From Arthrobacter caoxuetaonis (GTDB lineage: Bacteria > Actinomycetota > Actinomycetes > Actinomycetales > Micrococcaceae), in NCBI RefSeq assembly GCF_023921125.1, contig NZ_CP099467.1, positions 1 through 64,000 on the forward strand: a stretch of DNA of 64,000 bases, read 5' to 3'. How positions within the stretch are numbered: the stretch's first letter is position 1; every line of letters starts with the position of its first letter. The translations under genes and the position numbers were made by a program. Shown in pieces: positions 2,563 through 23,609 of this stretch. The notes beneath the pieces were generated by a model that saw only the letters and a program-made list of their open reading frames with translations, did not search any database and had not been told where the DNA came from.

Positions 2563-2602
2563 CACAGAGTCGCAGACTTACAGACTGCCAGACTTACAGA
2601 GT
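2563..2602. repeat. Five abutting octads
   Basis: Five consecutive 8-bp units (CACAGAGT, CGCAGACT, TACAGACT, GCCAGACT, TACAGAGT) lie head to tail just after the par terminator. This is the clearest evidence that the repeat period is 8 bp. Confidence 0.85.
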
Positions 2603-3153
2603 CATGATCCGGACGCGGCTGCCCGGAGGTCGACGTCGTGGGTGCCGCACCATTCGTCGCCGTCTGCCTCCGACGCATGCTTCCACCAGTCAGCGTCCTG
2701 AACCGGCAGCTCAGCGGCAAGATCATCCATGCTGGCGCCGGCGAACCCGCGCAGGCTCTTGAACTCGTGGAGCAGCTGGGCCTCCTCGTACCCCTCCTCC
2801 GACGCGATGGTGTGGCCGTCAGTGTCATGGACGCCAGTCACAACCATGCCGGGACCGTCCTCGCTTGGCTGGACGCGGATGGTGGCGGCGTCGGGGAACT
2901 TCCGAAGAGTCAGAATGGCGATCTGTGCCAGGGCCAGGTTTGCGACATCGTCGATGGCTTTCTGCCGCTTGATGAGCCCGTCGCGGTAAAGGTTCTGGGT
3001 GATCTGCAGTTCCCTGTCACCGAAGAGGCCGGGGGAGTGGCTGGCCTGGACCGGTGCTTTGAATTCCCCGGTCAGGACGATGGGAGCTTCCTCGTGGGCA
3101 CCGGGCGCGAACTGGCCGCCGGCGGGTACCCCTTCGGGGACCCGGGCGATCAT
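2602..3153 (-). CDS. GGQFA-tagged hypothetical protein
   Basis: The 183-residue product carries a variant of the tag at residues 4-16 (RVPEGVPAGGQFA). A body of unknown function follows, with an acidic C-terminus. The middle part (about residues 60-110) has the pattern LAxIxxLRKFPDAATI followed by GMVVTG. This echoes the repeated unit in the genes at 5861 and 7178, so it may be a single-unit relative. The start overlaps the stop of the upstream gene in an ATGA arrangement (3150-3153), which implies translational coupling. No start-associated GCCGCACACA element is needed or present. Confidence 0.72.
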   Translation of the reverse strand: MIARVPEGVPAGGQFAPGAHEEAPIVLTGEFKAPVQASHSPGLFGDRELQITQNLYRDGLIKRQKAIDDVANLALAQIAILTLRKFPDAATIRVQPSEDGPGMVVTGVHDTDGHTIASEEGYEEAQLLHEFKSLRGFAGASMDDLAAELPVQDADWWKHASEADGDEWCGTHDVDLRAAASGS

Positions 3154-4277
3154 GCTGCAGCCGATTCGGTGCCGGTGGGAACCCACGTGCTGCCCGTGTC
3201 CGTGCGGTAGGCCGAGTGGACTACGCCGGCCGTTTCGTCCCAGCCGTAACCGTACTTGTCGTCGGCGTCGAGCTTCACCGGGTTCTCTTCAGTGGCCGTT
3301 GCCTTGATCATGCCGGGGATCCTGGCGTCGTACCCGGAGCCGTTCACGCGGTCCAGCAGGACGACATACGGATCCTTGAACTGGATTTCCCGGGACGCGA
3401 CCTCGCCGGTATCCGCGTTGAAGACCGTCGAGTCGCGGATGTCGTCGAAGTAGACGACGTCCAGGTCCACGCCCTCATGCCAGTACTGCGGTCCTTCGGT
3501 TACCAGGGAAGAGATCGCTTCCTTCGCTTCGGGGGAGGAGGCATCCAGGCCCCGCTCATTGAGCATGGCGGCAATCCTGGCTTCACGTGCTTCCTGGGCG
3601 CCGTCGACGTTGCCGTCATAAAGGGTGTTCGTCCCGCCCGGCTGGCCGAGGGTGAGCCGCATGAGCTTCTCCGGCGTGTTCCGGACCAGGCCTGCCATGG
3701 GGTCGGAGTCATCCTTCTCCCGGATTTCTTCGGCGAGCTGGTCAAGCTTGTCGGTGTCCACCTCGTCCACGTCGATGCCGGCTTCCTTCAGGAGGTCGCG
3801 CGCCTGCTCGGTGGAAGCATCAATGACTGATTCGGTGAAGAGGTCGTTGACCTCGTCTTCAACCTCGCTGTAACTGCCGCTGAGGTACCTGCTGACCTGG
3901 TCATCCCGGAGACGGTCGTCGTACTGGACGAAAGCCAGGCTGTAGGTGTCGCTGCCGGCGGAAACCCGTTCGATGAGGGCATCGGCTTCACGGTCTGCGT
4001 CCAGGCGGACTGAATGCCAGGCTGCTACGACTTTGTTTCCGCCTTCAAGGGTGACGGTGACGTTACTCCCTCCATCGGCGGTGCTGATGACCCCGGGATG
4101 CTCTTCTCCGATTTCGTCTTCCCAGAGGACGTGCCGGCCGACCCGGTACACTTTCGGGTCCGGATGGGGGAGCGGGGCTGAGATGCTGACACCGACGGCT
4201 TCGGAATGGGTGGTTTCTGCGAACTGGCCGCCGGTGGGGATGCCCTGTGGCTGGCGGCTTATGTGGAAGTTGCTCAT
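3150..4277 (-). CDS. GGQFA-tagged hypothetical protein (375 aa)
   Basis: The tag spans residues 8-20 and is followed by TTHSEA. The rest is hydrophilic and acidic. Around residues 50-95, VLWEDEIGEEHPGVIS and VTVTLEGGNKVVAAW suggest a small beta-barrel-like segment. Further on are an Asp/Glu-rich helical stretch and a C-terminal part with the pattern VDLDVVYFDD. I do not recognise a family. ATG 4277 is fixed by GCCGCACACA at 4286-4295, 8 bases upstream, with an AAGGG Shine-Dalgarno in the spacer. It is translationally coupled to the following gene. Confidence 0.75.
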   Translation of the reverse strand: MSNFHISRQPQGIPTGGQFAETTHSEAVGVSISAPLPHPDPKVYRVGRHVLWEDEIGEEHPGVISTADGGSNVTVTLEGGNKVVAAWHSVRLDADREADALIERVSAGSDTYSLAFVQYDDRLRDDQVSRYLSGSYSEVEDEVNDLFTESVIDASTEQARDLLKEAGIDVDEVDTDKLDQLAEEIREKDDSDPMAGLVRNTPEKLMRLTLGQPGGTNTLYDGNVDGAQEAREARIAAMLNERGLDASSPEAKEAISSLVTEGPQYWHEGVDLDVVYFDDIRDSTVFNADTGEVASREIQFKDPYVVLLDRVNGSGYDARIPGMIKATATEENPVKLDADDKYGYGWDETAGVVHSAYRTDTGSTWVPTGTESAAA

Positions 4278-4285
4278 GCCCTTGT

Positions 4286-4295
4286 TGTGTGCGGC
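4286..4295 (-). promoter_or_regulatory. Start-associated element GCCGCACACA
   Basis: Full 10/10 match, 8 bases before ATG 4277; the spacer holds AAGGG. Confidence 0.75.
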
Positions 4296-4330
4296 TGCCG
4301 GCCCGCCAGCACAGCCGGCAGCCGCCAGGC

Positions 4331-4993
4331 CTACGCCGTCTCTGCACCCTTCACGGCATGGACGGGGTCCTCACGCATGCCCCAGTATTCGTCCGCTCCG
4401 GAGAGGATGACCCCGGCTGCCAGGTGCCCGCGGTGCCAGGATTCTGACGGTGTGTGCTTCAGCAGCCGGCGCCAGTGTTCACGGTCCTGAGCCGATGCCC
4501 GTTTGCGGCCGGCAGTCTGCAGGGCGAGATCCATGGCGTACACCGGGACGGTGCCCTTCTCGAAGCGGTCGGTGTCTTCCTCGAGCGGATGATGACGCTC
4601 GTACAGTGCAGTGATGCCGGTCTTGATGCCTTCAGCGAAGTCCTCGTAGTCAGGATCGCCCGTTTCCCGGCTGCATTCGAGTGCCCATTCATGCCAGAGC
4701 TGAGCTGCTTCACGGCGTGAGGCATTGGCCACGCCCCTGGAAAGCGGGCCGGACATCACTGTGTCCACGTTCTGGTCGACGTCGGGGCCGCCGAACCGTC
4801 CCGGCGCGATAGCCGGCTGGCCGGCGTGGCGGCCCTCGAACCCTCCATCAGGCATGGGAGGCAGGGGTACAGGAGCCGCGGATCTTGTTCCTGAGGTCTG
4901 GGGGTGGAGGGTTACGGGTGCTTCGCTGTGGCTCGCGGAGGCGAACTGGCCGCCTGCAGGGATGCCCTGCGGCTGTCGGTGAGGTGTGTGCAT
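4331..4993 (-). CDS. GGQFA-tagged hypothetical protein (220 aa)
   Basis: The tag lies at residues 6-18, followed by SHSEAP. A Pro/Gly-rich linker reaches about residue 65. The remaining part is helical and charged, with several Trp and His residues near the C-terminus (WHRGHLAAGVIL). No known domain is apparent. ATG 4993 is preferred over the GTG two codons upstream because it keeps the 7-base distance from the GCCGCACACA element seen at the other tagged genes. It lies 53 bases upstream of the next tagged gene, so the pair may be co-transcribed. Confidence 0.75.
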   Translation of the reverse strand: MHTPHRQPQGIPAGGQFASASHSEAPVTLHPQTSGTRSAAPVPLPPMPDGGFEGRHAGQPAIAPGRFGGPDVDQNVDTVMSGPLSRGVANASRREAAQLWHEWALECSRETGDPDYEDFAEGIKTGITALYERHHPLEEDTDRFEKGTVPVYAMDLALQTAGRKRASAQDREHWRRLLKHTPSESWHRGHLAAGVILSGADEYWGMREDPVHAVKGAETA

Positions 4994-5000
4994 GCCCACC

Positions 5001-5010
5001 TGTGTGCGGC
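5001..5010 (-). promoter_or_regulatory. Start-associated element GCCGCACACA
   Basis: 10/10 match, 7 bases before ATG 4993; spacer GGTGGGC. Confidence 0.75.
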
Positions 5011-5044
5011 TTCGGCCAGGATCGCGCCGCCGTAGAATTGGAGG

Positions 5045-5185
5045 GTGGTAAAAGTCAGCGGAGTGATCCGCCCAGTAGAAAAACGCGAGATCTCAGCAGA
5101 GGGCGAAAGCTATGACGAAGCCCGTCAGGCGCTGATTGACCAGATCCCGGAGGGCTGGGAGCTGCTCCAGATCCTCACCAAGTAG
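5045..5185 (+). CDS. Small hypothetical protein (46 aa)
   Basis: The short product contains the patterns SGVIRPVEKREI and YDEARQALIDQIPEGWELLQI. This is a beta strand followed by a helix and a Pro-Glu-Gly-Trp turn, reminiscent of small actinobacterial phage and plasmid proteins of unknown function. GGAGG abuts the GTG at 5045. That is too close for an ideal site, so the true start may be a few codons later. It is divergent from the tagged gene at 4993. Confidence 0.55.
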   Translation: MVKVSGVIRPVEKREISAEGESYDEARQALIDQIPEGWELLQILTK

Positions 5186-5306
5186 CTGGGCCCCGTTTTT
5201 TGGACTCCGCCTGCCGGCGCCCAAGGCTGAGACTGGCAACGGTTGTCGCTGGTGCCTCAATATTACGCGCGGTAGACATGTGGCCCTGCCTGCCAGGCAT
5301 GCCGCA

Positions 5307-5312
5307 TATATT
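5307..5312 (+). promoter_or_regulatory. -10 element of a leaderless promoter
   Basis: TATATT ends 6 bases before ATG 5319, so transcription should start at or next to the start codon. Confidence 0.55.
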
Positions 5313-5318
5313 CCAGCT

Positions 5319-5816: not shown

Positions 5817-5824
5817 GGGCAACG

Positions 5825-5855
5825 GGTGCGGCCCGCCGGGGGAGCGGACCGCACC
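5825..5855. terminator. Hairpin between convergent genes
   Basis: Arms GGTGCGG and CCGCACC flank a 17-base GC-rich loop between the stops of the genes at 5816 and 5861. There is no clear T-run. Confidence 0.45.
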
Positions 5856-5860
5856 GTGCA

Positions 5861-7072
5861 TTACGCTGCAGGCCTTCGCATGGCCCGGTTCACGCGTTCG
5901 TGCAGACCCAGCAGTGCGGTGGCCCGCTCGTTGCTCTCCACCTTCTCGGCTGCGTCTCCAATCTCGGGCAGCCCGAAGTAGGCAGCCTCCACAAGGTCAG
6001 CCTGTTCGGTGCGGGTCAGGGGCCTGGTGCGTGGGTTGGCCATCACCTCGGAGGCCGGCGAAGGGGCGGTCATGATGGCCCTGAGATCCAGTGAGGCGTA
6101 GGCGCCTTTGCTGCCAGCCATGATGTGTCCGACGCCGTCCCCCCATTCACCGTGTTCGTCCAGGTCTGAGGCGAGGTCCCCGATTTTGGCGCCGCCGCCG
6201 GGAACGTGCTGTTCGAAGAGGCTGCCGGCACCGGTTTCGATGCTGTCGCCGGAGTTGTCCCGGACGGCGAAGACCTTGAAGCGGCCTCCGGTGTCGGCGC
6301 TGGAGACCAGCTCAAGGGTGTGGGCGCCGGGGTGGCGTTCCAGGATGCTTGCGGCCAGCAGCTGCATGGAGGCGTGCTGAGAGGCTGCCTTCACGAGCTT
6401 CGCCTGCTCTTCGGCACGCGCCCTGATGTCGGCGAGATCCTCATAACGCTCCATGGCTGCCGTAGTCACGGCCCTGGCTGAGGGTCCGGCCGGAACCTCT
6501 GAAGGTACGGCAGGGACTGTGCCGGCGGTTTCCAGGGAGGCAGCGGCGCGAAGGTTGACGATTGCAGTCTTGCCGTCGCGGATGTCGGAGGTGACCGACG
6601 CGATGCCGTCAGCCCAGTTGTCATTGCCAAGGTCGATAGCCCATCCCAGTTCATCCAGCTGCGCACTGTTGGCCCCGCCGAACTCATCCCTGGTCCAGTT
6701 GTCGTTATCGGAGGAGTCCACGATGTCCAGGCCGTCGGCGTCGCGGATAGCCTTCATGTCGTACTGCCGCTCACCGTCCGCGTTCTCCCACATGACGAGC
6801 GTTTCAGCGCCGGGATAGTCCCTGAGGATAGCCGCTGCGGCCAGCTGAATGGATGCCCGCTGATACTGCGCGTCGACCGCGAGGAAGCTATCCCCCTGAG
6901 GCCCTTCGAGCCACTTGTCCTTGAGTTCCTCGCGCGCTGCTTCGATGGACGAAATGTCCGGGTACCCTTCAGTGGCTTTGAGAGTGACTCCGGTAGCTTC
7001 AGGCTTGATCGTGGGTGCGTACTGGCCGCCGGCGGGGATGCCCGCGGGCTGGCGTGCAGGGTTGTTTGTCAT
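5861..7072 (-). CDS. GGQFA-tagged protein with internal duplication, family A
   Basis: The 403-residue product has the tag at residues 7-19 in the form GGQYA. Two copies of a unit of roughly 110 residues follow, at about 60-170 and 215-345. Each begins with a helix of the type LAAxILxxxPGAxTL, then has strands with an aspartate-rich turn, and ends near a tryptophan-glycine segment. The C-terminal tail (RPLTRTEQADLVEAAYFGLP) is shared with the gene at 7178, so the two are paralogues. Function is unknown. The start is fixed by the element 8 bases upstream. Confidence 0.78.
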   Translation of the reverse strand: MTNNPARQPAGIPAGGQYAPTIKPEATGVTLKATEGYPDISSIEAAREELKDKWLEGPQGDSFLAVDAQYQRASIQLAAAAILRDYPGAETLVMWENADGERQYDMKAIRDADGLDIVDSSDNDNWTRDEFGGANSAQLDELGWAIDLGNDNWADGIASVTSDIRDGKTAIVNLRAAASLETAGTVPAVPSEVPAGPSARAVTTAAMERYEDLADIRARAEEQAKLVKAASQHASMQLLAASILERHPGAHTLELVSSADTGGRFKVFAVRDNSGDSIETGAGSLFEQHVPGGGAKIGDLASDLDEHGEWGDGVGHIMAGSKGAYASLDLRAIMTAPSPASEVMANPRTRPLTRTEQADLVEAAYFGLPEIGDAAEKVESNERATALLGLHERVNRAMRRPAA

Positions 7073-7080
7073 ACCCCATC

Positions 7081-7090
7081 TGTGTGCGGC
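7081..7090 (-). promoter_or_regulatory. Start-associated element GCCGCACACA
   Basis: 10/10 match, 8 bases before ATG 7072; spacer GATGGGGT. Confidence 0.75.
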
Positions 7091-7123
7091 AGCGGGGTTG
7101 AGGGAGCGGTCCAGGAAACCAAA

Positions 7124-7177: not shown

Positions 7178-8359
7178 CTATGGTTTCAGGGCCTTCCCAG
7201 TCCGTTCTGCCAGATCCTTCAGCCAGTTCTCGTGGTGGCTGTTCTCTGCGCCGGCGATGGCCTCCTCGATCTTCGGGAGACCGAATTCGGCTGCCGTGAC
7301 CAGGTCGGACTGGTTCTGGGGGCTCAGCGGGCGGACCCGGGGGTCCTTCAGCCGTTCGTCGTCCGGGAACTCCTGGTTCATGGCCTTGTACAGATCGACG
7401 TCGACGTAGGTCTGGTGCCGGTTGCTGCGCACTTCCCCGATCATCGTTGCCCAGCTGAGGTTGTCCGGATCCATGCACTGCACGAGGGTCCGCACGGTGG
7501 GCCCGTTGCCGCCCAGCAGGTCGACGTCGTTCAGTTCTGTGTCGAAGTCGGGGTCGGCGACGACGTTGCCGTCAGCATCAAGGACGGCGAGGACTTCCAG
7601 CCGGCCGTTCGAGTTGATGTCCCGGCTGCACTTCAGACGCCGTGCATCCGGGTACTTGTCCAGGATGCCGGCAGCGACCAGGCGCATGGAGGCGTGGTCG
7701 TTGATTTCCTGGATCATGGCGGTCTGTTTGCGCAGGTGTTCCATCCGCTCCTGGGATGCAGCGTAATTCTCGGCTGCTTCCACGGCTGCGATGCTCCGCG
7801 GCGGCGCCACCTTGTCGACGGCGGAAACCAGGTCGATTTCTGCAGTCTTGCCGTTGTAGCGGTCACGGGTGATACGGCCGATGCCCTTCGCCCAGCCGTC
7901 GTCCTCAGTGTCCAGCGCCCAGCAGAGCTCATCGAGCTGAGGGCTGTTCGGACCGGCGATTTCGTTCCTGGTCCAGTCGTTGTCCTCGCGGCCGGCGAGC
8001 TCGTTTCCGGCATCGTCCCGGACCGAGAGGAGGTCGTACTGGTTTTCGCCGTCCTCGTTTTCGCGCAGGACAATGCTCGAGGCGCCCGGGAACTGCTTGA
8101 TGATGCTGTCCGCGGCCAGCTGGATGGAGAGGTGCTGCTGCAGCCGGTCAAGCTGCTTCATTTCACGGGAGTCGGGGTCCTCTGCGCTGTCGAGGATCTC
8201 CCTGATCTCGTCGCGGTCCTTGATGCGCTGCTGGGTGAGCTGCTGGCCGCTGGCGGCATCAAAGTCCAGGGTGACGCCCGTTGGCTCGGACTTGGTCGTG
8301 GGTGCGAACTGACCGCCGACGGGGATTCCCGCGGGCTGCCGTACAGGGTTATGTGTCAT
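7178..8359 (-). CDS. GGQFA-tagged protein with internal duplication, family A
   Basis: This 393-residue paralogue of the product at 5861 has the tag at residues 7-19. The repeated unit appears twice, recognisable by LAADSIIKQFPGASSI near residue 80 and LVAAGILDKYPDARRL near residue 220. Both units contain an Asp-Asp/Asn turn and a Trp-centred segment. The conserved C-terminal tail (RVRPLSPQNQSDLVTAAEFG) also matches its neighbour. The family looks like a soluble alpha/beta repeat with no catalytic motif I can name. It has its own element upstream and a terminator downstream. Confidence 0.78.
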   Translation of the reverse strand: MTHNPVRQPAGIPVGGQFAPTTKSEPTGVTLDFDAASGQQLTQQRIKDRDEIREILDSAEDPDSREMKQLDRLQQHLSIQLAADSIIKQFPGASSIVLRENEDGENQYDLLSVRDDAGNELAGREDNDWTRNEIAGPNSPQLDELCWALDTEDDGWAKGIGRITRDRYNGKTAEIDLVSAVDKVAPPRSIAAVEAAENYAASQERMEHLRKQTAMIQEINDHASMRLVAAGILDKYPDARRLKCSRDINSNGRLEVLAVLDADGNVVADPDFDTELNDVDLLGGNGPTVRTLVQCMDPDNLSWATMIGEVRSNRHQTYVDVDLYKAMNQEFPDDERLKDPRVRPLSPQNQSDLVTAAEFGLPKIEEAIAGAENSHHENWLKDLAERTGKALKP

Positions 8360-8366
8360 ACCCCTC

Positions 8367-8376
8367 TGTGTGCGGC
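8367..8376 (-). promoter_or_regulatory. Start-associated element GCCGCACACA
   Basis: 10/10 match, 7 bases before ATG 8359; spacer GAGGGGT. Confidence 0.75.
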
Positions 8377-8464: not shown

Positions 8465-9223
8465 CTAGGCCAGCTCAGAGAACTTTTCGTAGCCGGGCAT
8501 CTGCTCTGCACGTTCCTTCACCTTGCCGAAGGCTTCGGCGGCGGCGCGCTGGGCGTCCTCTCCGTAAGCGTCCTTCCCTGTCAGGTCAGAGATGATCGGG
8601 TCGACGAAGTCCTGCGGGAAGGGCTTCTCATTCATCCAGGATTCGCTGTCCACGGTGGTCTGCCCGGTCGTGAAGTTGTGGTCGAGCGTGAACCAGTCAC
8701 CCGTGTGGGTGGAGACGGTCATGCCGGCGACGTAGTCTCCGGTGTGGCTGTTGCGCCCCAGATAGTTGTCGCGGACTTCAAAGTCCTCGCCGTCCCTGAA
8801 GCTTCCAGCGAAGACGTCGGTGAGCTTGTCCTTCCACTGCGCGGCCTCGATGGCGTTCATAATGTCTTCGGTCGAGGGTTTGTTGCTGTGGGTCATGGTG
8901 AACTCGCGGTTCGGGTCATCGGACAGGAACTTCACGGCGACTTCATCGGTGCCAAGACCTGAGATGCCCAGCCTGGCGCCGTCGGTCCACAGCTCCACTG
9001 ATCCTTCGGGGAGATCCTGGCTCTCGCGGGCCGGGAAGAGTCCGCCCTTGAGGCCCGCGGCGGCCAGTTCCTGGACGGCCTCGGAGTCGATGGAGGGGTC
9101 GTGGATCACCAGGTCGGGCCGGGGAGGTCCGCCGAGGCTGATCGAGGATTCAGAGTGAGTCGTGGCTGCGAACTGGCCGCCGGTAGGAATTCCCTGCGGC
9201 TGGCGGTTACGGAATGTATTCAT
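8465..9223 (-). CDS. GGQFA-tagged protein, family B
   Basis: The 252-residue product has the tag at residues 7-19 followed by TTHSES. The body is a second paralogous family shared with the genes at 9319 and 10123. Conserved features, in order, are a helix AAAGLKG, a strand pair LGISGLGTDEV, the segment FTMTH, DVFAGSF.DGEDFEVRD, GRNxxTGxYVAGMTV, and WFTLDHNFTTGQTT. It looks like a beta-rich domain with a short C-terminal helix. No enzyme motif is evident. The start is placed by the element 7 bases upstream. Confidence 0.78.
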   Translation of the reverse strand: MNTFRNRQPQGIPTGGQFAATTHSESSISLGGPPRPDLVIHDPSIDSEAVQELAAAGLKGGLFPARESQDLPEGSVELWTDGARLGISGLGTDEVAVKFLSDDPNREFTMTHSNKPSTEDIMNAIEAAQWKDKLTDVFAGSFRDGEDFEVRDNYLGRNSHTGDYVAGMTVSTHTGDWFTLDHNFTTGQTTVDSESWMNEKPFPQDFVDPIISDLTGKDAYGEDAQRAAAEAFGKVKERAEQMPGYEKFSELA

Positions 9224-9230
9224 ACCCCTC

Positions 9231-9240
9231 TGTGTGCGGC
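9231..9240 (-). promoter_or_regulatory. Start-associated element GCCGCACACA
   Basis: 10/10 match, 7 bases before ATG 9223; spacer GAGGGGT. Confidence 0.75.
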
Positions 9241-9318: not shown

Positions 9319-10086
9319 CTACTCGACGGGGATCTGAGCGGCGGCGAGCTTGTTGTAGAACGGGTAGCCTTCGACCCGGTTCCGGATCTTGGCGAACGCT
9401 GCCGCTGCGACCGTCTGGGCGTTGCCGCTGGCATCGCTTCCCGTCAGGTCGGACATGACCGCATCCAGGTCGATCTTCGGCATCTCGGCACCCGGACCGG
9501 ATTCCGGCGTCGCAGAGGTTTCGCCGGTACCGTAGTCATGCTCGACCGTGAACCAGTTGCCTTCCTGGTCCGAGAGGGTCATGCCGGCGAAGAATTCACC
9601 GGTCTCAATATTCCGGTCGAAGTAGGTCTCGCGGACCTCGTTCTGGCCGTCAGTGAACCCCACAGAGAAGGCATCGGTGACGTCCTCCCGCCAGGCAGCG
9701 AACTCGATACCGGTCACGACCTCTTCAGCCCTCGGGTAGCCGCCGTGAGTCATCCGGAAGGAGCGGTGCTCATCGTCGGTGACGACCCTGACTTCCACTT
9801 CTTCGCCACCCAGGCCGGAAATGGCCAGCTCGTGGCCTTCGTGGGAGGTGTAGATGACGGCGCCGGCCGGGATGTCTTCATCGGTGCCGTTGTACGGGGT
9901 GATGCGTCCCTGGAGGCCTGCCCGGGCCAGCGCACGCACCTCCTCAGTGTTGCAGTCGTAGTCGATGTCGAGTCCGCCGGTGCCGGTCCCTGCCGCGAGG
10001 GCCACATCGGATTCGGACTTGGGGGTGGATGCGAACTGTCCGCCGGCGGGAGTACCTTCGGGCTGGCGGTTACGGAATGTAGTCAT
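9319..10086 (-). CDS. GGQFA-tagged protein, family B
   Basis: This 255-residue paralogue of the product at 8465 has the tag at residues 7-19. It keeps the same order of segments: ARAGLQG, LAISGLGGEEV, FRMTHGG, WREDVTDAFSVGFTDG, RNIETGEFFAGMTL and WFTVEHDYGTGET. The differences are spread evenly, as expected for diverged duplicates rather than recent copies. ATG 10086 is chosen over the GTG two codons upstream because of the 7-base spacing to the element. Only 36 bases separate it from the upstream gene, so read-through from 10123 is likely. Confidence 0.78.
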   Translation of the reverse strand: MTTFRNRQPEGTPAGGQFASTPKSESDVALAAGTGTGGLDIDYDCNTEEVRALARAGLQGRITPYNGTDEDIPAGAVIYTSHEGHELAISGLGGEEVEVRVVTDDEHRSFRMTHGGYPRAEEVVTGIEFAAWREDVTDAFSVGFTDGQNEVRETYFDRNIETGEFFAGMTLSDQEGNWFTVEHDYGTGETSATPESGPGAEMPKIDLDAVMSDLTGSDASGNAQTVAAAAFAKIRNRVEGYPFYNKLAAAQIPVE

Positions 10087-10093
10087 ACCCACC

Positions 10094-10103
10094 TGTGTGC
10101 GGC
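10094..10103 (-). promoter_or_regulatory. Start-associated element GCCGCACACA
   Basis: 10/10 match, 7 bases before ATG 10086, inside a 36-base intercistronic gap. Confidence 0.75.
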
Positions 10104-10122: not shown

Positions 10123-11280
10123 CTACGGCCCGACAAGGAACTCGTCCATTTCAGTCAGGGTGTTGTCGAGCTGCAGGAAGACCGGCTGGCGGCCGCCGAC
10201 TGCGAAACCGTCCAGGAGTGATCCTGTCTTCCGCAGTGTTTCCTGTGCCTTCCGAATGTGCTCCCGCATGGCAGCCGTATCGTGCTTGTCCGCTTCAAGG
10301 CGGCCGGGCAGCGGAGCCAGGGCTGCGGCACCGATGGCGTACATCGCAGCCGAGGTGGAGTCCCCGCCGGCGTTGACCGTACTGACCGCGTTGATGTACT
10401 CAAGGCCCAGCTGCGCACCAGTGGCCAAGACGGCAGTGTTGCGTGCCTGCTGGCCCGTCGTGGAGTCCCGGTTCTGGACGTGCTCCATGAGATCGCGCAT
10501 ACCGGCTTTCATGTCGCTCTCCTTCCTGGGAGCGAGCCGCTTTTCAGCACCCGGCAGTTTCAGGGCTGCGGAACGGATGCGCTCAAAGGCCCGGGCTGCG
10601 GCAACCTCGTTGTTCCCGTCCTCGGGTTCTTCAGCCATGTCGACGATCAGTGCGTCCAGGGCCGCTTCCCGTGCCAGACCGGACAGCTCCCCGCGTTCGG
10701 AGGAAAGGGTCGTCTTCCCGGTGTCGTAGTCGTGGCTGACGTACAGCTCGTTGTCGTCCTCGTCACGGACAGTCATGGAAGCGCAGCTGGTGCCGTCGCC
10801 GGTGCGGCCGAGTTCAACTTCACGGGTCTCGAAGACTTCGCCGTCATAGAACCCGGCTGTGAAGACGTCCCGGGTTTCGAGATCCCAGAGGACGTCCTCA
10901 ATAGCTTCAACAGCCTTGGCCGGGTCTTCGCAACCTGTCCGTTCGGTGGTGAATGTGTTCTCTTCGGTGGGGTCGAAGTGGTGGATCGTGAGGTTGTCGG
11001 TGCCGACCCCGGAAATGACCAGTTCGTGGCCGCGCGGGGAAACGTAGGCGAGGGCGCCTTCAGCGGCGTCAGGGTTGCCTCCGGTGTAGAGGGTTACGTC
11101 GCCCTGGAGACCGGCCTGGCCGAGGCTGAAGGCTGCTGCCCAGGCGCCAGGGGCTGATGCCGGGATGCTGCCGGACTGGTCATTCAGGTGTACGCCGGCT
11201 GGTTCTGCGTGGGCGGTGGTTGCGAACTGGCCGCCGACGGGAATCCCTGCGGGCTGGCGGTTCATGTGTGAAGTAGTCAT
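10123..11280 (-). CDS. GGQFA-tagged protein, family B with C-terminal extension
   Basis: The 385-residue product has the tag at residues 8-20. Residues about 35-250 form the family B domain (LGQAGLQG, LVISGVGTDNL, DVFTAGFYDGEVFETRE, LYVSHDYDTGKTT). A C-terminal extension of about 130 residues is unique to this member. It is alanine- and glycine-rich with the hydrophobic stretch SAAMYAIGAAALAPL, then a charged helix and TLTEMDEFLVGP. The extension might be a membrane-proximal or oligomerisation part; I cannot assign it. The element lies 7 bases before the start. Confidence 0.78.
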   Translation of the reverse strand: MTTSHMNRQPAGIPVGGQFATTAHAEPAGVHLNDQSGSIPASAPGAWAAAFSLGQAGLQGDVTLYTGGNPDAAEGALAYVSPRGHELVISGVGTDNLTIHHFDPTEENTFTTERTGCEDPAKAVEAIEDVLWDLETRDVFTAGFYDGEVFETREVELGRTGDGTSCASMTVRDEDDNELYVSHDYDTGKTTLSSERGELSGLAREAALDALIVDMAEEPEDGNNEVAAARAFERIRSAALKLPGAEKRLAPRKESDMKAGMRDLMEHVQNRDSTTGQQARNTAVLATGAQLGLEYINAVSTVNAGGDSTSAAMYAIGAAALAPLPGRLEADKHDTAAMREHIRKAQETLRKTGSLLDGFAVGGRQPVFLQLDNTLTEMDEFLVGP

Positions 11281-11287
11281 GCCACTC

Positions 11288-11297
11288 TGTGTGCGGC
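11288..11297 (-). promoter_or_regulatory. Start-associated element GCCGCACACA
   Basis: 10/10 match, 7 bases before ATG 11280; spacer GAGTGGC. Confidence 0.75.
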
Positions 11298-12372: not shown

Positions 12373-12864
12373 TCAGGGCAGGGTAAAGGAACCCATGAGG
12401 GGATGCTCGTTCGGGACAATGTCCGGGTCCCAGGTCAGCGGCCATGGAGCGGACAGGACTTTCGGGTCCCAGCTGATCTCGTTGAGGTTGTGGTACTGCC
12501 GGGCTGTCCAGTCCACGGCAATGGTCCGGCCGCCGCGATGGAGGTGAACCCATACGTGCTCATCGGCCATCGGGTGATCCGCCTGGGCTGTTACGACGTC
12601 TGCATCCCAGCCCTGCTCCCGGGCGTAGGCCGCGAACTGTCCGCTGACCTCACCGCAGGCCCAGTCGTCAGTCGCTTCGTCTTCTTCCTCGGAGATGTCG
12701 GGGTAGCGGCTCCAGATGTCCAGACGCGGGTCCGTCCCGGTGAAAGCCTCCAGGAGAGGTGCGGGATCTTCCCCTGCGGCGGCAGCCGGGAGGCTCAGCT
12801 CAGGCTCCCGGTGGGACATCCTGGCGAAGCGGCCAAGAGGGTCCCTGATGATCCCGGTGCTCAC
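12373..12864 (-). CDS. Papain/transglutaminase-fold-like protein with short tag variant
   Basis: The 163-residue product begins with RDPLGRFARMSHRE, which looks like a contracted tag without the GG. The body has a plausible Cys-His-Asp triad in papain-fold order: C70 in DWACGEVS, H103 in DEHVWVHL, and D118 in AVDWTARQY. The phrase VDWTARQ(Y/F) is typical of transglutaminase- or papain-like domains found in phage and toxin proteins. It may act as a peptidase, deamidase or acyltransferase; the substrate is unknown. The GTG start overlaps the upstream stop (12861-12864), so it is coupled to the zinc-finger gene. Confidence 0.65.
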   Translation of the reverse strand: MSTGIIRDPLGRFARMSHREPELSLPAAAAGEDPAPLLEAFTGTDPRLDIWSRYPDISEEEDEATDDWACGEVSGQFAAYAREQGWDADVVTAQADHPMADEHVWVHLHRGGRTIAVDWTARQYHNLNEISWDPKVLSAPWPLTWDPDIVPNEHPLMGSFTLP

Positions 12865-13349
12865 TCCTCGTCGCTGACCTGGTGGCCGGCCTTGTTCAGC
12901 TCTTCGACCGCGGCTTCCTGGATGGAGAGATGATCTTCTTCATCGCCGTTGTGGTAGAACTCCAGGACACTGTCACCTTCATCGTCTTCGACTTCGTAAT
13001 GACCGTCGTCGATCCGGTTCACGGAGAACTCAACGGTTTCACCGTCAGCGTCGGTAAGGGACATATCGAAGATCTGCTGGCCTTCACCCTCCTTGGCATC
13101 GGCACAGTTGCCGCAGAGGCCGTCCCAGCCTTCGCCGTCGCTGAGGGATTCACCGCATTCACTGCACTGGCAGCTGAGGCAGGTGCCGCTGGTTTCCTTC
13201 TCCTCGCCGCACTCATCGCACTCTTCGGCCTGGATCGCTTCAGGCTCAGGTGTGGAAAGGACGATGCCTGCTGCTTCAGCGTGGGCGGACGGTGCGAACT
13301 GGCCTCCGGCGGGCGAACCTTCGGGCTGGCGGTTTGGTGTAGTCGTCAT
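12861..13349 (-). CDS. GGQFA-tagged zinc-ribbon protein
   Basis: The 162-residue product has the tag at residues 7-19. Eight cysteines follow as C44-x2-C47, C57-x2-C60, C62-x2-C65 and C79-x2-C82, enough for two zinc sites. The C-terminal half is very acidic, with strands such as FDMSLTDADGETVEF and a closing helix. A nucleic-acid or protein-binding role is possible. The start follows the element by 7 bases. It is coupled by GTGA overlap to the papain-like gene, suggesting the two work together. Confidence 0.75.
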   Translation of the reverse strand: MTTTPNRQPEGSPAGGQFAPSAHAEAAGIVLSTPEPEAIQAEECDECGEEKETSGTCLSCQCSECGESLSDGEGWDGLCGNCADAKEGEGQQIFDMSLTDADGETVEFSVNRIDDGHYEVEDDEGDSVLEFYHNGDEEDHLSIQEAAVEELNKAGHQVSDEE

Positions 13350-13356
13350 GCCCATC

Positions 13357-13366
13357 TGTGTGCGGC
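13357..13366 (-). promoter_or_regulatory. Start-associated element GCCGCACACA
   Basis: 10/10 match, 7 bases before ATG 13349, in a 42-base intercistronic gap. Confidence 0.75.
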
Positions 13367-18151: not shown

Positions 18152-19090
18152 CTACCGGCGCCAACCCGGAAGCATTTCGTTGAGCATCCGCTCCCGCTCT
18201 TCAGTGAGCTTGGTGGCGGAGCGGCGCTGTGCCCTCACCCAGGCAGCGTGACTGGCCTCCACCAGATTCGCACTGTGCTGGGACGGGAAGCGGCGGTTGC
18301 GGCGCAGGAAGTCGGAAGTCCAGCGGAGGCGCTCCTTCCACACCTGCTCGCGCCCGCGGTTCCAGCCTGGGAGCCTCTCATCGAGTTCCCGGATCTGCTC
18401 GTTGGTCATGCGTGAGCGGTGTGTGCGCTGGGAGCTGAGCCATTCGGCAACCCGGTGCTCTTCGGGGTCGCTGGAGCCGGAGGTCGGGAACTTCCCGCCA
18501 AGGCGTTCGACGACGGCGGCCGCACGGTCCACATTCTTGGCCCAGGAGAGCGGGTTGGGGTCCCGCCAGTCCCGGTCCAGGGCGTCGAGGGCCCGGATGC
18601 GGTGCTCGGGCAGCCTGTCCTCGTTCTTGCGCTGGTAGACCAGCCAGCGTCCGTAGCTTGAGACCTCGTTGGACTCTTTTCCGGCTGCCGGCAGGCGTCC
18701 GTGCCTTTCCCGGTAGGCGCGCACCTCATCCAGCCTGGCCTGCCATGCGGCGTCCCTGGGGTCGCGCCATCCCGGCAGGTGCTCGTCGAGAAGGCGCGCC
18801 CTGAACTCAGGAAGGTCATCCTTGAAGCGGCGCTGCTCGTTCAGCCATCCTGCAAGACGCTTTGACTGTGGCCTGGACGGGTTGTGTGTTGGCATGGCGC
18901 CGTTGTCTGCGATGTATTCCAGGACTTCATTGAACCTGTCATCCCATGCCTCGCGGCGTGCGCGTCCCCAGTCTTCGGGTCCGGTCCGGGCAGGGCTGGT
19001 CAGCGCGACGGCGGGCTCGCCGTGGCGCGTCGCTGCGAACTGTCCGCCTGAAGGTACGCCCTTCGAAACGCGGTTTACGGGCTGTGTCAT
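18152..19090 (-). CDS. GGQFA-tagged protein with helicase-associated (HA) repeats
   Basis: The 312-residue product has the tag at residues 7-19 (RVSKGVPSGGQFA). Four helical repeats of about 65 residues follow, each with a leading W, a ..RLPA/RFPS turn, a LAxWLxxQR helix and a closing LPGWR or DWR. This is the helicase-associated (Myb-like) repeat, thought to bind DNA and usually attached to actinobacterial helicases. Here there is no helicase domain. The GCCGCACACA element is present but 23 bases from the ATG, three times the normal distance. The gene is convergent with the desaturase. Confidence 0.82.
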   Translation of the reverse strand: MTQPVNRVSKGVPSGGQFAATRHGEPAVALTSPARTGPEDWGRARREAWDDRFNEVLEYIADNGAMPTHNPSRPQSKRLAGWLNEQRRFKDDLPEFRARLLDEHLPGWRDPRDAAWQARLDEVRAYRERHGRLPAAGKESNEVSSYGRWLVYQRKNEDRLPEHRIRALDALDRDWRDPNPLSWAKNVDRAAAVVERLGGKFPTSGSSDPEEHRVAEWLSSQRTHRSRMTNEQIRELDERLPGWNRGREQVWKERLRWTSDFLRRNRRFPSQHSANLVEASHAAWVRAQRRSATKLTEERERMLNEMLPGWRR

Positions 19091-19113
19091 AGGCCCCCCC
19101 TATCCACTTCGCC

Positions 19114-19123
19114 TGTGTGCGGC
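19114..19123 (-). promoter_or_regulatory. Start-associated element with long spacer
   Basis: 10/10 match, but 23 bases before ATG 19090; a G-run follows next to the start. Confidence 0.6.
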
Positions 19124-19183: not shown

Positions 19184-19215
19184 ATACTCCCAGTTACCCC
19201 ACTAATTGGGAGTAT
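19184..19215. promoter_or_regulatory. Inverted repeat over the fic-like start
   Basis: ATACTCCCA (19184-19192) is repeated in inverse as TGGGAGTAT (19207-19215) around a 14-base spacer. The right arm includes the Shine-Dalgarno and start codon of the gene at 19214. Confidence 0.65.
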
Positions 19216-20197: not shown

Positions 20198-20268
20198 GCG
20201 AGCTGAAGAGTCAGGGGCGGTCGGTAACGTTGTAGATGCACCATCCAGAACCATCGAAGGCACGCACC

Positions 20269-20634: not shown

Positions 20635-21269
20635 CCGGCCGAACGGCCCCGCCACCCCGGGACGAGGTCATCGAGCTGAGCAGCTTGCGCGGCGCCCAGA
20701 CGCCCTTCCCGAAGCTTCTTCCGCTGGAATGCCAGCCAGGTATAGGTCCTCAACGCGGCTGGGTCCTTCACCCGGCTCGTGGGGAGCGCTCCCGCCGCAT
20801 CAACGTAGAGGCGCAGCTCGCGGACCCGTTCAGCCCACTTGAGCCGGTCAAGGTTCCTCCACCCGGGCAGGGCATCATCGAGTGCCTGGATCTGGTCGGC
20901 AGTCAGTTTCCCGGCCGACATCCGCGAACGCTGCCGCAGGAGCCATGGGCCGGCGCCTTCGCCGTTAGCCGGGATGTGGCCCCGTGACTGGTAGTCGAGA
21001 ATGGCTGCCGCCAGGTTGTTCTCCCAGGAGAGCTGCGTCTGGTTCGCCCGCCAATCGCCGTCCACACTGTTCAGGGCCTCCGCCCGGGACGGTCTGAGCA
21101 GGCCTTGTGCTTCAAGGCGCTGCTGGCGTTTGAGCCACTGCTGCAGTGCCCGTTCACGCGGGTGCCGGCCGCTATCCCCTGGAAGGGACCCGAACCGGGC
21201 CTTGAAGTCTATGAGCTCTTCAAGGGTCGACAGCCATTGCTGGTCGTTATGCGAAACGGGGGCGGGCAC
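20631..21269 (-). CDS. HA-repeat protein without tag
   Basis: The 212-residue product is made of three helicase-associated repeats, each with QWL/WENNLAA or WAERVRELR leading helices, a GxLP turn and LPGWR or VPGWR at the end. It resembles the tagged product at 18152 but has neither tag nor start element. GTG 21269 is the first start after an in-frame stop and lacks a Shine-Dalgarno. DNA binding is the expected activity of this repeat. No helicase gene is nearby. Confidence 0.75.
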   Translation of the reverse strand: MPAPVSHNDQQWLSTLEELIDFKARFGSLPGDSGRHPRERALQQWLKRQQRLEAQGLLRPSRAEALNSVDGDWRANQTQLSWENNLAAAILDYQSRGHIPANGEGAGPWLLRQRSRMSAGKLTADQIQALDDALPGWRNLDRLKWAERVRELRLYVDAAGALPTSRVKDPAALRTYTWLAFQRKKLREGRLGAAQAAQLDDLVPGWRGRSAG

Positions 21270-21290
21270 GTACCAACGTTAGCGGCTCGC

Positions 21291-22136
21291 CTACGAGATC
21301 TGACGGAAAGTGCAGCCAGAGATCGTGAACCCGGCCGCCCACTCAGGGACCGTGATGGAGAACTGGGGTGCAACGCTGATGAAGTTGTTCTCGATGATGT
21401 TGCCCTGGGCGTCGGAGATCTCCCAGTAGCAGTCGGTGACCTTCTCGCCTACGGACTGCCAGACACCGGGCTGCAGGTCCACGCCGATGAGGTACTTGCC
21501 TGGCCCGAACTGTCGCACTTCGGCTACGGCATTCTCGTTGGCTTCCTCCTCGGCAATCATCTGCTGGCCCGAGGCGATGGTCGCTTCGATGGCAGCTGCT
21601 TTCGGGTGGTCGGGGCAGAGCTTGTAGGCGCCCATGAGGTACTTCGCCTGGCCGCCGCTGCGGACATAGTCCACATAGATTCCTTCGGTGTTTGCGCAGA
21701 CACCGTAGAGATACCTCAGGTTCTCGGGGTCGTATCCCGGGCCGAAAGTAATCTCCATAGCCTCCTTCTCGACGTCGGACAGGACGCCGGAGGTCCGCAC
21801 CCGGCCTTCGCAGAAAGAAGATGCGGCAAGGCCCCAGACGGCCTGGACCGTAGCGAATTCCTTCTTCGTCCCGTCAACGGTGCAGTCCAGGACAACAGCC
21901 ATCCTGGGCTTGGCCGGGGGCTTGCTGGCAGTCGGAGTCGGCTTGGCCGTACGTGTGGGCGTCGGCTTGGGGGAGGGGGTCTTGCTCGGTGAGGCTGATG
22001 CCGAAGGTGTCGTGCGTGTGTCCGCCTCCGCGGTCGTGCCACTAACCCCGCGGTATCCCACGATGACGATCAGGACGACAAGCACAGCGATCACCAGAGC
22101 GCCGCCAAGCGGAACCAGCACAGCCTTGTTCTTCAT
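21291..22136 (-). CDS. Membrane-anchored extracytoplasmic protein
   Basis: The 281-residue product has a single N-terminal membrane segment (residues about 5-28), a Thr/Ser/Pro/Lys linker to about residue 77, and an extracellular domain with six cysteines. Its C-terminal part (YLIGVDLQPGVWQSVGEK, then CYWEI) is a beta-rich module like those seen in actinobacterial surface proteins. The last 30 codons are duplicated as a broken copy just upstream. Function is unknown; it is likely bound to the outer face of the membrane. Confidence 0.72.
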   Translation of the reverse strand: MKNKAVLVPLGGALVIAVLVVLIVIVGYRGVSGTTAEADTRTTPSASASPSKTPSPKPTPTRTAKPTPTASKPPAKPRMAVVLDCTVDGTKKEFATVQAVWGLAASSFCEGRVRTSGVLSDVEKEAMEITFGPGYDPENLRYLYGVCANTEGIYVDYVRSGGQAKYLMGAYKLCPDHPKAAAIEATIASGQQMIAEEEANENAVAEVRQFGPGKYLIGVDLQPGVWQSVGEKVTDCYWEISDAQGNIIENNFISVAPQFSITVPEWAAGFTISGCTFRQIS

Positions 22137-22344
22137 TTTTCTCCCCCTGGTTAGTACTCACCCGAGAATCTACAGCGGGAGACAGCGCCTGATGCGAATA
22201 AGAACGGATATTTCAGGCGCCCTGGTTGCCGGCTCAAAGGAGGAGTCGGCCAGGCGCCCTCCATCTGCTCATCCCCACGAAAGAATTCTTCAAGCAGGGT
22301 TCCCGGCGACTGTGGAGAACGGACGGAGGGCCGGCCGTTACGGG

Positions 22345-22445
22345 CTATCCGATCTGGCGGAAGGCGCAAGGCCTGGATGGTGAAGTCGGCCGCCCACTCC
22401 GGCACCGTGATCGTGAACTGGGGTGCAACGCCTCCACAGGGGTCA
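22345..22445 (-). pseudogene. Duplicated 3' fragment of the gene at 21291
   Basis: About 90 bases closely match the end of the neighbouring gene: VPEWAADFTI here against VPEWAAGFTI there, with the same GGTGCAAC stretch. The frame breaks after a few codons. It is a remnant of a tandem duplication or recombination. Confidence 0.7.
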
Positions 22446-22453
22446 ACGCGTTG

Positions 22454-23125
22454 CTATCGCATGGAAGGGTTCCAACCTGAAAAAGGTGAGGGTTTCGTGA
22501 GTACTTCTTCTACGCACCGGGCAGCGTTAAGTGTCCGCTTGCCATTATGCAGGCTGATGATCTGATGGGGCTCGGGATAGGTATCCCCGGTACCAGGCCA
22601 CCGGCCTGTCACCTCCACCACGCGCCCCTCCGCTGCAAAAACAACCATGCCCCTAGACACTTGCACCGACGGCAGCGCCTCAAAGTTACCCTGGGAGGTG
22701 ACCTGATAGTCCAGCTCCACGATGGGGCACGTCGCTTCGATCCGGTCGGTGACGTTGGCTGAACTGGCTTCGGACTCAAGGGGTCCGTAACGTGACAGCA
22801 CCTCAATCCTGCTGTAACCGTCGACCTCCTGCGTCCTGTTTGGGGGCCACTTGCACTCTTCGAAGACCTCTAAGAGCACTTCGCCCGTGGCTGATATGTG
22901 CTCTTCGCTGAACAGTTCCTCGGTGTGTTGCGAGGTCTGGTTCATCCCGTGCCGTTCCGTACAGCTGAGTATCTTCCCCGCGTAATAGTCGTCCCTGTTG
23001 AATCTCTCCTGGAACAACGGGGTGTTGCCCAGCAGGATCCCAGCTGTGACAGCAGCAGCAAAGGCTGTCAGAACGGCCGAGATCTGCTTCCACTTGATCC
23101 CGGTTGATTCCCTTACTGACCCCAT
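22454..23125 (-). CDS. Membrane-anchored hypothetical protein
   Basis: The 223-residue product has a short basic N-terminus and one membrane segment (about 13-33). The extracellular part carries four cysteines and a central beta-rich region (VVFAAEGRVVEVTGRW). Codon use is less GC-biased than in the neighbours. The start at 23125 has no strong Shine-Dalgarno. It is adjacent to the gene at 21291, which has the same topology, but shares no clear sequence with it. Confidence 0.65.
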   Translation of the reverse strand: MGSVRESTGIKWKQISAVLTAFAAAVTAGILLGNTPLFQERFNRDDYYAGKILSCTERHGMNQTSQHTEELFSEEHISATGEVLLEVFEECKWPPNRTQEVDGYSRIEVLSRYGPLESEASSANVTDRIEATCPIVELDYQVTSQGNFEALPSVQVSRGMVVFAAEGRVVEVTGRWPGTGDTYPEPHQIISLHNGKRTLNAARCVEEVLTKPSPFSGWNPSMR

Positions 23126-23402
23126 GGCGGCCCCTCTCGGTGAGGAGGGCAGTATGAACTGCCAGTGCCTTCCGCGGAAGTGTAGAAAAATCTCCCAGCC
23201 GGCGCGCTTCAGGCCTCTTCATCAGAGGAGTCGGCCAGCTGTACCCGATCTACTCAGCCGAACCACAAACATTCTGGAGTCTTTCGGGTATGCAAAAGCC
23301 CCCGCCGAATCGACGGAGGCCAGCAAGAGTGGATTAGCGGCCGGGGAAACGCTTCAACAGACCGGCGGCACGGGATTTCACAGCCTCGAAGTCTGCAACC
23401 AT
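23126..23402. other. Intergenic stretch with one terminator
   Basis: No supported gene. The only structure I see is the hairpin at 23294-23320. Confidence 0.5.
23294..23320 (-). terminator. Terminator of the small tagged gene
   Basis: An imperfect 10-bp stem (two mismatches) is followed on the minus strand by TTTTGC. Confidence 0.55.
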
Positions 23403-23609
23403 CTACATCTCCGGGTTCTCGCTCGAAGATACGCGTGTCGGAGCTTCAGCAGGCTTCGGAGCCTCCTGGACGGGAGCGGGTACGGGCTCAGCCGGAGCCG
23501 AGTGGATGGCCGAGACGGTGACGTCGGCTTCGTTTCGCTGGAGGGTGGTGAACTGGCCACCACCGGGGACGCCGGCAGGCACACGCGGCCGGAAAGGAGA
23601 ATCACTCAC
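23403..23609 (-). CDS. Small GGQF-tagged protein (68 aa)
   Basis: The tag RVPAGVPGGGQF occupies residues 9-20 and makes up almost a third of the product. A Pro/Ala/Val-rich, probably unstructured tail follows. The GTG start lies 5 bases after GCCGCTCACA, one mismatch from the usual element. With so little body, this is the nearest thing to an isolated tag in the window. It lies downstream of the restriction-modification operon on the same strand. Confidence 0.65.
   Translation of the reverse strand: MSDSPFRPRVPAGVPGGGQFTTLQRNEADVTVSAIHSAPAEPVPAPVQEAPKPAEAPTRVSSSENPEM

Follow-up and report, generated by a model that had tools for sequence, protein, structure and literature searches.

What does it mean when one plasmid places the same short peptide in front of a whole series of its proteins? 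The question is raised by a 64,000-nucleotide stretch of Arthrobacter caoxuetaonis DNA (hereafter, the window), which corresponds to bases 1-64,000 of contig C2, a replicon of 374,851 bp that makes up the genome together with a 3.56-Mb chromosome. The initial annotation singled out eleven minus-strand genes of this window as opening with a common tag, and all eleven begin with it. The tag is about 25-30 residues long, with the consensus R-Q-P-x-G-I/V-P-x-G-G-Q-F-A-x3-H/K/R-x-E-x(1-3)-V-x-L. We propose that it may serve as an address private to one lineage of mobile elements. The address property is well supported, and we put at about 0.65 the probability that the tag is read by a partner encoded by the element itself. 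Delivery of the tagged proteins through the transfer machine of the element is a tentative extension, with the odds somewhat against it.

The strict motif R.P.G.P.GGQ[FYW] has ten matches when the window is read in six frames, each at one of the named genes, and none in 50 codon shuffles; the eleventh gene (start at 19090) falls outside this motif and reads RVSKGVPSGGQFA. Residues M1, R8, G12, P14, G16, G17, Q18 and E26 are invariant in the 11-row alignment. The assertion that the tag sits on eleven different bodies needs correction: the bodies are indeed unrelated, but there are fewer than eleven kinds, since paralog sets are present. One set comprises the genes at 2602..3153, 5861..7072 and 7178..8359, and another those at 8465..9223, 9319..10086 and 10123..11280. 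Four other proteins stand beside these sets, and the genes at 4331..4993 and 12861..13349 fall into a single family when the wider set is considered. The gene 12864-12373 may open with a divergent 'GRF' version of the tag (VSTGIIRDPLGRFARMSHREPELSL), although the tag profile scores it at chance level (E=20). The suggestion relies on the pattern, on its place at the N-terminus and on the ortholog, which starts similarly; the match of this gene to a later profile is by construction, the gene being itself a row of that profile.

Over nine sequence sets, 211 tagged entries fall into 81 body families (single-linkage phmmer, E<1e-3; the number is approximate). These entries are the part of 254 profile matches that keep a fixed spacing from GG[QR]F to E/D. 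The 43 dropped matches include all 12 rows of the tag dialect G049, the sets of open reading frames (ORFs) are mechanical calls, and one C2 gene (215.6 kb) is counted twice among the 211 because of overlapping pieces. With 81 body families, the tag is a module carried by unrelated bodies, and the objection that it marks one orthologous family fails. The tagged bodies named by Pfam are an NAD-dependent DNA ligase (LigA), a PolyA_pol head followed by an HD domain, a KTSC protein (below the cut-off) and proteins with helicase-associated (HA) repeats. From its domains, the PolyA_pol and HD body is predicted to be a CCA-adding or poly(A)-polymerase-type enzyme. The nearest annotated relative found for C2, the 400,603-bp plasmid NZ_CP104273.1 of Arthrobacter sp. 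zg-Y1110 (hereafter, the sister plasmid), also has a Fic protein in its tagged set.

The tag appears detachable in several respects. The C2 LigA aligns only from residue 61 onward, with PDB 2owo (E. coli LigA) from its residue 22; the tag is therefore a stretch added ahead of the enzyme. LigA is tagged on four Micrococcaceae plasmids (G0, G16, W02 and W04) and, judged by its N-terminus, untagged on Pseudactinotalea, Cellulosimicrobium and Curtobacterium elements, while the Fic protein has a tag on zg-Y1110 but its C2 relative, at 50% identity, has none. In an AlphaFold model of the protein encoded at 8465-9223, based on a 6-row alignment, residues 1-35 have a predicted local distance difference test score (pLDDT) below 50, with block means of 29-32 for residues 1-30. 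Block means rise to 52-91 from residue 41, and 184 of the 252 residues reach a pLDDT of at least 70; a second model, with a mean pLDDT of 53.5, was too poor for use. In the cases tested, the tag is therefore not part of one continuous globular domain, being predicted as disordered in 8465-9223 and preceding a complete LigA.

Its position is N-terminal, with a Met 2-25 residues upstream in 196 of the 211 entries and none within 40 residues in the other 15. The tag is hydrophilic and has no hydrophobic core of the Sec/Tat signal-peptide kind. Transmembrane-like segments occur in none of the 31 tagged C2 entries and in 1 of 196 tagged proteins of five elements, against 82 of 321 untagged C2 proteins, and the tagged proteins are acidic (median body isoelectric point 4.67 versus 5.78 for untagged proteins on C2). 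Bodyless tag ORFs exist as well. Maturation had been put forward as one conceivable role, and for such a cleavage signal there is no positive evidence: the last tag position is E or D in every row, although this is imposed by the selection pattern, and the would-be cleavage residue E is R in dialect G049. Of note, a tagged gene at C2 201186-201514 carries an apparent frameshift in the tag region, with an intact relative on the sister plasmid (207436-208449).

With regard to distribution, 30 places on C2 match a 34-position tag profile at E<=0.0114, and the best chromosomal match has E=0.038 with 13 of 34 positions (150 of 208 candidates were scored). A consensus query matches 4 of 72,556 plasmids at E<=1, with at least 129 places. 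Within Micrococcales, large plasmids and contigs of this kind reach 58 tag matches per genome. Among eleven named plasmids counted at E<=0.01, zg-Y1110 has 42 tags, pPA-B-2242 46, pYJN5-1 38 and pACHL01 49, and three Curtobacterium plasmids (546-608 kb) have 11, 8 and 6. None was found at this threshold on a Glaciihabitans plasmid, Bifidobacterium pMP7017, pTC1 and one plasmid of strain U41, the last two being Arthrobacter-group plasmids typed as conjugative by PLSDB. In the same genus, the tag positions of genome G016 coincide with genes of NZ_CP104273.1. A profile of the linked VirD4-like protein retrieved 20 loci (one genome per species searched), all titled Actinomycetota. Tag matches occur in 9 of 13 genomes picked via VirD4 (36 in A. 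terrae, 47 in Pseudactinotalea terrae, 58 in Cellulosimicrobium, 9 in Agromyces subbeticus and 1-4 in five others), and the remaining 4 have none. In broad samples the tag is scarce, being found in 8 of 297 genomes of the order and 2 of 396 of the phylum (own genome included); two genomes of the order sample have at least 26 matches each. The suggestion of similar starts in phages was not borne out, with no credible tag match in 50,697 phage records and no relative of the linked VirD4 in IMG/VR viral contigs. In the samples searched, the tag is restricted to one element lineage.

Three loci illustrate how parts of the element can be placed. A tag-rich relative lies within the 1.53-Mb contig NZ_WNXZ01000001.1 of Pseudactinotalea terrae (G300:C7:1088218-1269184; loci L121-L130), where it is either integrated or part of a larger replicon. 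A lone tagged Fic-like protein is encoded on a 4.55-Mb contig, probably chromosomal (G109:C1:987164-988468, locus L140), and the tag can thus probably be left behind or carried off alone. Relatives of VirD4 and of p530 (63% and 50%) occur at G710:C3:20981-24873 (locus L220), on a contig with little else of the element, which is a separate carrier of coupling genes.

The replicon that carries the tags is well equipped. The sister plasmid is annotated with its own DnaE, Ssb, NrdEFI, LigA, thymidylate synthase, dihydrofolate reductase and dUTPase, and with ClpX, a Clp N-terminal-domain protein, SecY/E/G, two sigma-70 factors, Lsr2, RtcB and an RNA ligase. On the transfer side, it has several pilus/secretion ATPases, a VirD4-type protein and a 1,520-residue FtsK protein. 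No capsid, portal or terminase is named for it over 400 kb of the PLSDB gene table, which is incomplete, with most rows hypothetical, and divergent capsids were not searched for. The transfer genes recur on C2. Pfam identifies an AAA_10 (VirB4-like) protein at 272966-275479, FtsK at 362989-367353, T2SSE at 188427-190457 and CHAP at 248644-250995, and the VirD4-like protein at 357923-360394 is assigned from a sub-cut-off TraG-D_C match (E=0.0032) and the Prokaryotic Genome Annotation Pipeline (PGAP) name on the sister plasmid. PLSDB mobility typing classes the six typed plasmids of this family as non-mobilizable. C2 further carries 37 tRNA genes covering all 20 amino acids, at about 140.0-158.5 kb and 178.8-183.0 kb (L005:1047-19506, L007:1823-5950). 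A private Sec translocon is annotated on the sister plasmid, with SecE, SecY and SecG at NZ_CP104273.1:125242-125514, 159473-160780 and 160825-161070 (loci L020 and L021).

The letters of the tag follow the element. On the KTSC protein, the tag is kept on the same body across elements, but reads RQPMGIPIGGQYAPTAHPEAGIAL on C2, RQPKGIPVGGQYAAYAHAEPGTSL on pACHL01, RQPAGQPIGGQFAQEPRGESTISL in Agromyces and RVPAGVREGGQWTTTTRHESPVAL in Pseudactinotalea; its forms in Curtobacterium and Glaciihabitans are remote ones. The same holds for the CCA-type enzyme, except in Curtobacterium, where its relative shows no tag. For the 153 tags of C2, pPA-B-2242, pACHL01 and Pseudactinotalea, identity is 0.628 between tags of the same element on other body families (2,797 pairs), compared with 0.555 for the same family in another element (547 pairs) and 0.538 when both differ (8,126 pairs). 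None of 200 label permutations reached this element effect, and the nearest non-homologous tag lies in the same element in 110 of 153 cases (39 expected). For C2 and zg-Y1110, the two closest plasmids, orthologous tags are 0.77 alike and tags within each are 0.54-0.55 alike, as expected from recent common descent. In four of four element comparisons, orthologs agree more closely in the tag than in the 30 residues that follow it (0.77 vs 0.61, 0.67 vs 0.43, 0.65 vs 0.54 and 0.51 vs 0.26). On C2, the four-fold sites of the conserved tag residues have reached saturation (0.619 against an expected 0.621); selection on the amino acids, and not recent copying, therefore explains the likeness of the tags there. 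The simplest account of the dialects would be a reader that differs from element to element.

The tag also has a counterpart in the DNA. The sequence CCGCACACA occurs in 178 copies on C2, where two leader classes can be told apart. Class A, with 133 copies, reads [CT]GG[GT]GAGAG-N12-[GT]CCGCACACATAGG, often followed by ATG, and class B, with 39 copies, reads C(A)GCCGCACACAG.NGGGCATGA. A spaced pattern covering both classes has 76 matches on C2, where some sites are matched in more than one way, and 2 on the chromosome. It is class B that accompanies the tag: on C2, 22 of 33 usable B sites precede a tagged gene, against 1 of 72 A sites (P=1.6e-13), and on zg-Y1110 the figures are 30 of 40 and 2 of 84 (P=6e-18). 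These counts exclude sites without a usable start codon 13-26 nucleotides downstream, namely 79 on C2 (15 B, 64 A) and 72 on zg-Y1110 (13 B, 59 A). One of the two tagged class A rows on zg-Y1110 is a sigma-factor-like protein caught by the loose pattern, and for some of the B sites counted as untagged the start resembles, by eye, a divergent tag. Seen from the proteins, 24 of the 31 tagged C2 entries have a B-type leader, 2 have an A-type leader and 5 have neither; for the 43 entries of zg-Y1110, the numbers are 30, 2 and 11.

Since no start codon lies 13-26 nucleotides downstream at 79 of 185 C2 leader sites (about half), class A need not adjoin a start. Where a start codon is present, its closeness suggests that the leaders are promoters of leaderless messages. 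Other elements have their own related leaders before tagged genes, such as CCCGCACATCTACCGGGCATGACC in Pseudactinotalea and TTGCCGCACGTAT.GAGGGTATGAGC in G049. In the window, class A copies (GG[GT]GAGAG-N12-CCGCACACATAGG) are found, for example, at 29268-29276(+), 43264-43272(-), 43814-43822(-), 45833-45841(-) and 62513-62521(+). Spread over C2 and nearly absent from the chromosome, the class A repeat resembles a promoter private to the element, which one of its sigma factors may perhaps use.

We propose that a disordered N-terminal peptide of about 25-30 residues, set before an independently folding soluble body, would be recognised by a plasmid-encoded partner. The likeliest reader would be the VirD4/TraG-FtsK transfer module of the element, and both the existence of a trans-acting reader and its belonging to the transfer machine are what we infer. 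The tagged proteins could then enter the recipient together with the plasmid DNA and aid its establishment, as a protein starter kit. The cargo would include LigA and the CCA-adding or poly(A)-polymerase-type enzyme, together with large families of no known function; some plasmids would add Fic, HA and KTSC proteins to it. A possible task of LigA is to seal the incoming DNA, and the CCA-type enzyme might serve the tRNAs of the element. Soluble, N-terminally marked, mostly provided with their own leader and encoded beside transfer ATPases, the tagged proteins look as a delivered starter kit would be expected to look. Relatives of VirD4, p530 and FtsK1454 are present on C2 and on each of the five further tag-rich elements looked at (G16, W02, W04, G300 and Cellulosimicrobium). 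Four plasmids have 12-16 tagged genes within 25 kb downstream of FtsK1454, where 2.1-2.9 are expected (P=0.009-0.054), and an FtsK gene has a tagged gene as its immediate neighbour downstream in Pseudactinotalea and Agromyces. The full picture, in which a dialect peptide co-evolves with its reader and leader-bearing genes supply soluble proteins delivered with the plasmid, or to a site built by the element, is a possible one that we hold tentatively.

Several observations weigh against an address read by the transfer machine. On a Curtobacterium plasmid, none of 10 profile-found tags lies within 25 kb of FtsK. The tag system does not always accompany the transfer module: the Glaciihabitans plasmid and Bifidobacterium pMP7017 have VirD4/FtsK relatives and no tag system, except for one variant tag on the KTSC protein of Glaciihabitans. 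A VirB4 relative was not found in a 200-kb Pseudactinotalea stretch. Many effector arrays evolve fast, whereas the tagged bodies show no measurable excess in rate over untagged ones (69.8 vs 70.4%, P=0.71; 43.9 vs 50.7%, P=0.051). On four of five elements, tag synonymous sites are less varied than codon usage predicts (0.43-0.51 vs 0.54-0.61; for pACHL01, 0.455 vs 0.601), and some cassette copying is therefore possible. LigA and the tRNA-type enzyme could also reasonably stay in the donor, and the dialects would be accounted for just as well by an intracellular address.

Such an address within the donor cell would dock the tagged proteins to an element-encoded hub, be it a replication or partition body, a membrane patch or another compartment, rather than to an export machine. 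The nucleic-acid enzymes among them (LigA, CCA/poly(A)-type, HA repeats) would then act where the DNA or RNA of the element is. The element's own DnaE, Ssb, NrdEFI, SecYEG and sigma factors (sister plasmid) and tRNA genes (C2) would suit such a site, and dialects fit any co-evolving partner. However, DnaE, Ssb and NrdEFI are absent from the tagged-gene lists, and tagged genes cluster near transfer ATPases on four of five plasmids; we regard this explanation as somewhat unlikely. A signal for turnover or modification, read for instance by the element's own ClpX and setting the stability of the tagged proteins, appears quite improbable. N-terminal motifs recognised by ClpX exist, and the sister plasmid has both ClpX and the Clp N-terminal-domain protein, but the tag, with its internal GGQF core and strand-like end, is unlike a short degron at the extreme N-terminus, and the presumed C2 ClpX (168856-170166) is unmatched in the 200-kb Pseudactinotalea stretch, no profile search of ClpX having been made.

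The tag might instead be the coding part of a mobile 5' gene cassette, in which the leader and the first 30 codons recombine together and the peptide has no function at the protein level. The association of class B with the tag, the low synonymous variety on four of five elements and the bodyless ORFs would all follow from it. Against these stand the saturated synonymous sites of C2, where the peptide is conserved nonetheless, and the KTSC and CCA-type rows, in which the tag keeps its place on orthologs across families while its letters follow the element, and we consider a cassette improbable. It is very improbable, finally, that we are dealing with a cryptic giant phage or phage-plasmid whose tag is a capsid-targeting (internal protein) signal. 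The gene content does recall a jumbo phage (tRNA array, Nrd, ThyA, ligases and DnaE), and the internal proteins of phage T4 have N-terminal capsid-targeting sequences that are cut after E; the gene table of the sister plasmid, within the limits given above, names no capsid, portal or terminase, however, the phage and IMG/VR searches were negative, and this E is replaced by R in dialect G049.

In the window, the tagged array runs on the minus strand. The gene 2602..3153 encodes 183 residues with the tag MIARVPEGVPAGGQFAPGAHEEAPIVL (3064-3153) and a body of the largest paralog family, which counts 53 entries across all the sets; upstream of the gene, no copy of the leader is seen. The gene 3150..4277 (375 residues, tag 4173-4277) is preceded by the start-associated leader variant GCCGCACACAACAAGG (4280..4295), and 4331..4993 (220 residues, tag 4898-4993) by the class B leader GCCGCACACAGGTGGG (4995..5010). 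Two proteins of the largest paralog family have a duplicated unit, namely 5861..7072 (403 residues, tag 6971-7072), with the class B leader GCCGCACACAGATGGG at 7075..7090, and 7178..8359 (393 residues, tag 8258-8359), with GCCGCACACAGAGGGG, also class B, at 8361..8376. The modelled protein 8465..9223 (252 residues, tag 9125-9223) is predicted to have an alpha/beta body folded from about residue 37, and its class B leader is again GCCGCACACAGAGGGG (9225..9240). Its paralogs are 9319..10086 (255 residues, tag 9988-10086; class B leader GCCGCACACAGGTGGG at 10088..10103) and 10123..11280 (385 residues with a C-terminal addition, tag 11176-11280; class B leader GCCGCACACAGAGTGG at 11282..11297).

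Further along, the gene with the possible 'GRF' tag (RDPLGRFARMSHREPELSL; 12373..12864, minus strand) overlaps the end of the upstream tagged gene 12861..13349. The latter encodes 162 residues with a Cys-rich, zinc-ribbon-like centre (sub-threshold Pfam match only), with its tag at 13248-13349 and the class B leader GCCGCACACAGATGGG at 13351..13366. The gene 18152..19090 (312 residues, tag 18992-19090) contains four HA stretches (PF03457), and the leader GCCGCACACAGGCGAA lies upstream of it at 19108..19123. An almost bodyless, tag-only ORF of 68 residues with a GTG start (23403..23609, tag 23505-23597) has the leader variant GCCGCTCACAATGGGG, with 3 mismatches, at 23609-23624.

Among the neighbouring genes, 1237..1914 (plus strand) is a ParA-family partition gene, annotated as ParA on the sister plasmid; if C2 is circular, it sits between tagged genes at C2 369.9-372.7 kb and the tagged array of the window. 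The FtsK/SpoIIIE-type ATPase at 47322..49175 (plus strand, 617 residues) is a marker gene of this plasmid family, with 77-91% identity on four sister plasmids and about 43% in Pseudactinotalea and Agromyces. The helicase-like and DNA-methylase-like genes at 23716-26304 and 26750-28792 neighbour each other and resemble, by eye, a type III restriction pair; their relatives also adjoin each other in the Pseudactinotalea element. Outside the window, a SNF2-type helicase at C2 260879-263638 (L011:7879-10638) is split by an intein (PF14890, E=2.6e-18).

That 81 families share a motif which is confined to one element lineage in the samples searched and varies by dialect suggests that a mobile element has a protein-sorting system of its own. 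If the private address code is true, it would be a plasmid counterpart of the packaging of proteins into virions, providing a delivered starter proteome for an element whose tRNA set, translocon and polymerase are its own. Should the tag direct delivery, megaplasmids of this kind would import a defined protein set with their DNA, and a portable N-terminal delivery signal for Gram-positive hosts would be at hand; should it direct proteins to a site in the cell, a compartment built by the element would be revealed. Either way, the proteins that a giant plasmid counts as its own become directly testable with one peptide.

Known systems resemble this element-wide N-terminal tag system in part. Like the PEXEL and RXLR motifs of effector export, the tag is a conserved short N-terminal motif ahead of diverse bodies, but here the element is bacterial, there is no signal peptide, and tagged bodies evolve no faster, measurably, than untagged ones. 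The capsid-targeting sequences of phage T4 are likewise short N-terminal tags on unrelated bodies of one mobile element; they differ in that here no capsid genes are named, there is no evidence of cleavage, and each element has more tagged proteins than T4. At the DNA level, the Start-Associated Sequences of Cluster K mycobacteriophages, of unknown function in the available part of the paper describing them (PMC3203893), are conserved short sequences found immediately before the start codons of many unrelated genes of one element. As far as that part goes, the C2 leader differs in sequence and in having two classes, 172 sites and one class that marks protein-tag genes, and about half of the C2 sites lack a start codon at the usual distance. 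The Bifidobacterium megaplasmid pMP7017, described as conjugative (PMC10832533), is a remote relative with VirD4, VirB4 and FtsK relatives (about 29% identity), in which no tag system was found. A further parallel is the conjugative type IV secretion system (T4SS). For the F plasmid pED208, co-translocation of the plasmid proteins ParA, ParB, SSB and PsiA/B to recipients has been described (PMC11288057, PMC8406263). The likeness lies in a set of soluble proteins belonging to the element itself, delivery being in our case a proposal only. The signals of F-type substrates are C-terminal or internal, with no shared motif reported in the available part of PMC11288057, whereas here one N-terminal motif is found on dozens of proteins; as in conjugative systems, C2 encodes a T4SS-type coupling ATPase together with its partner ATPases.

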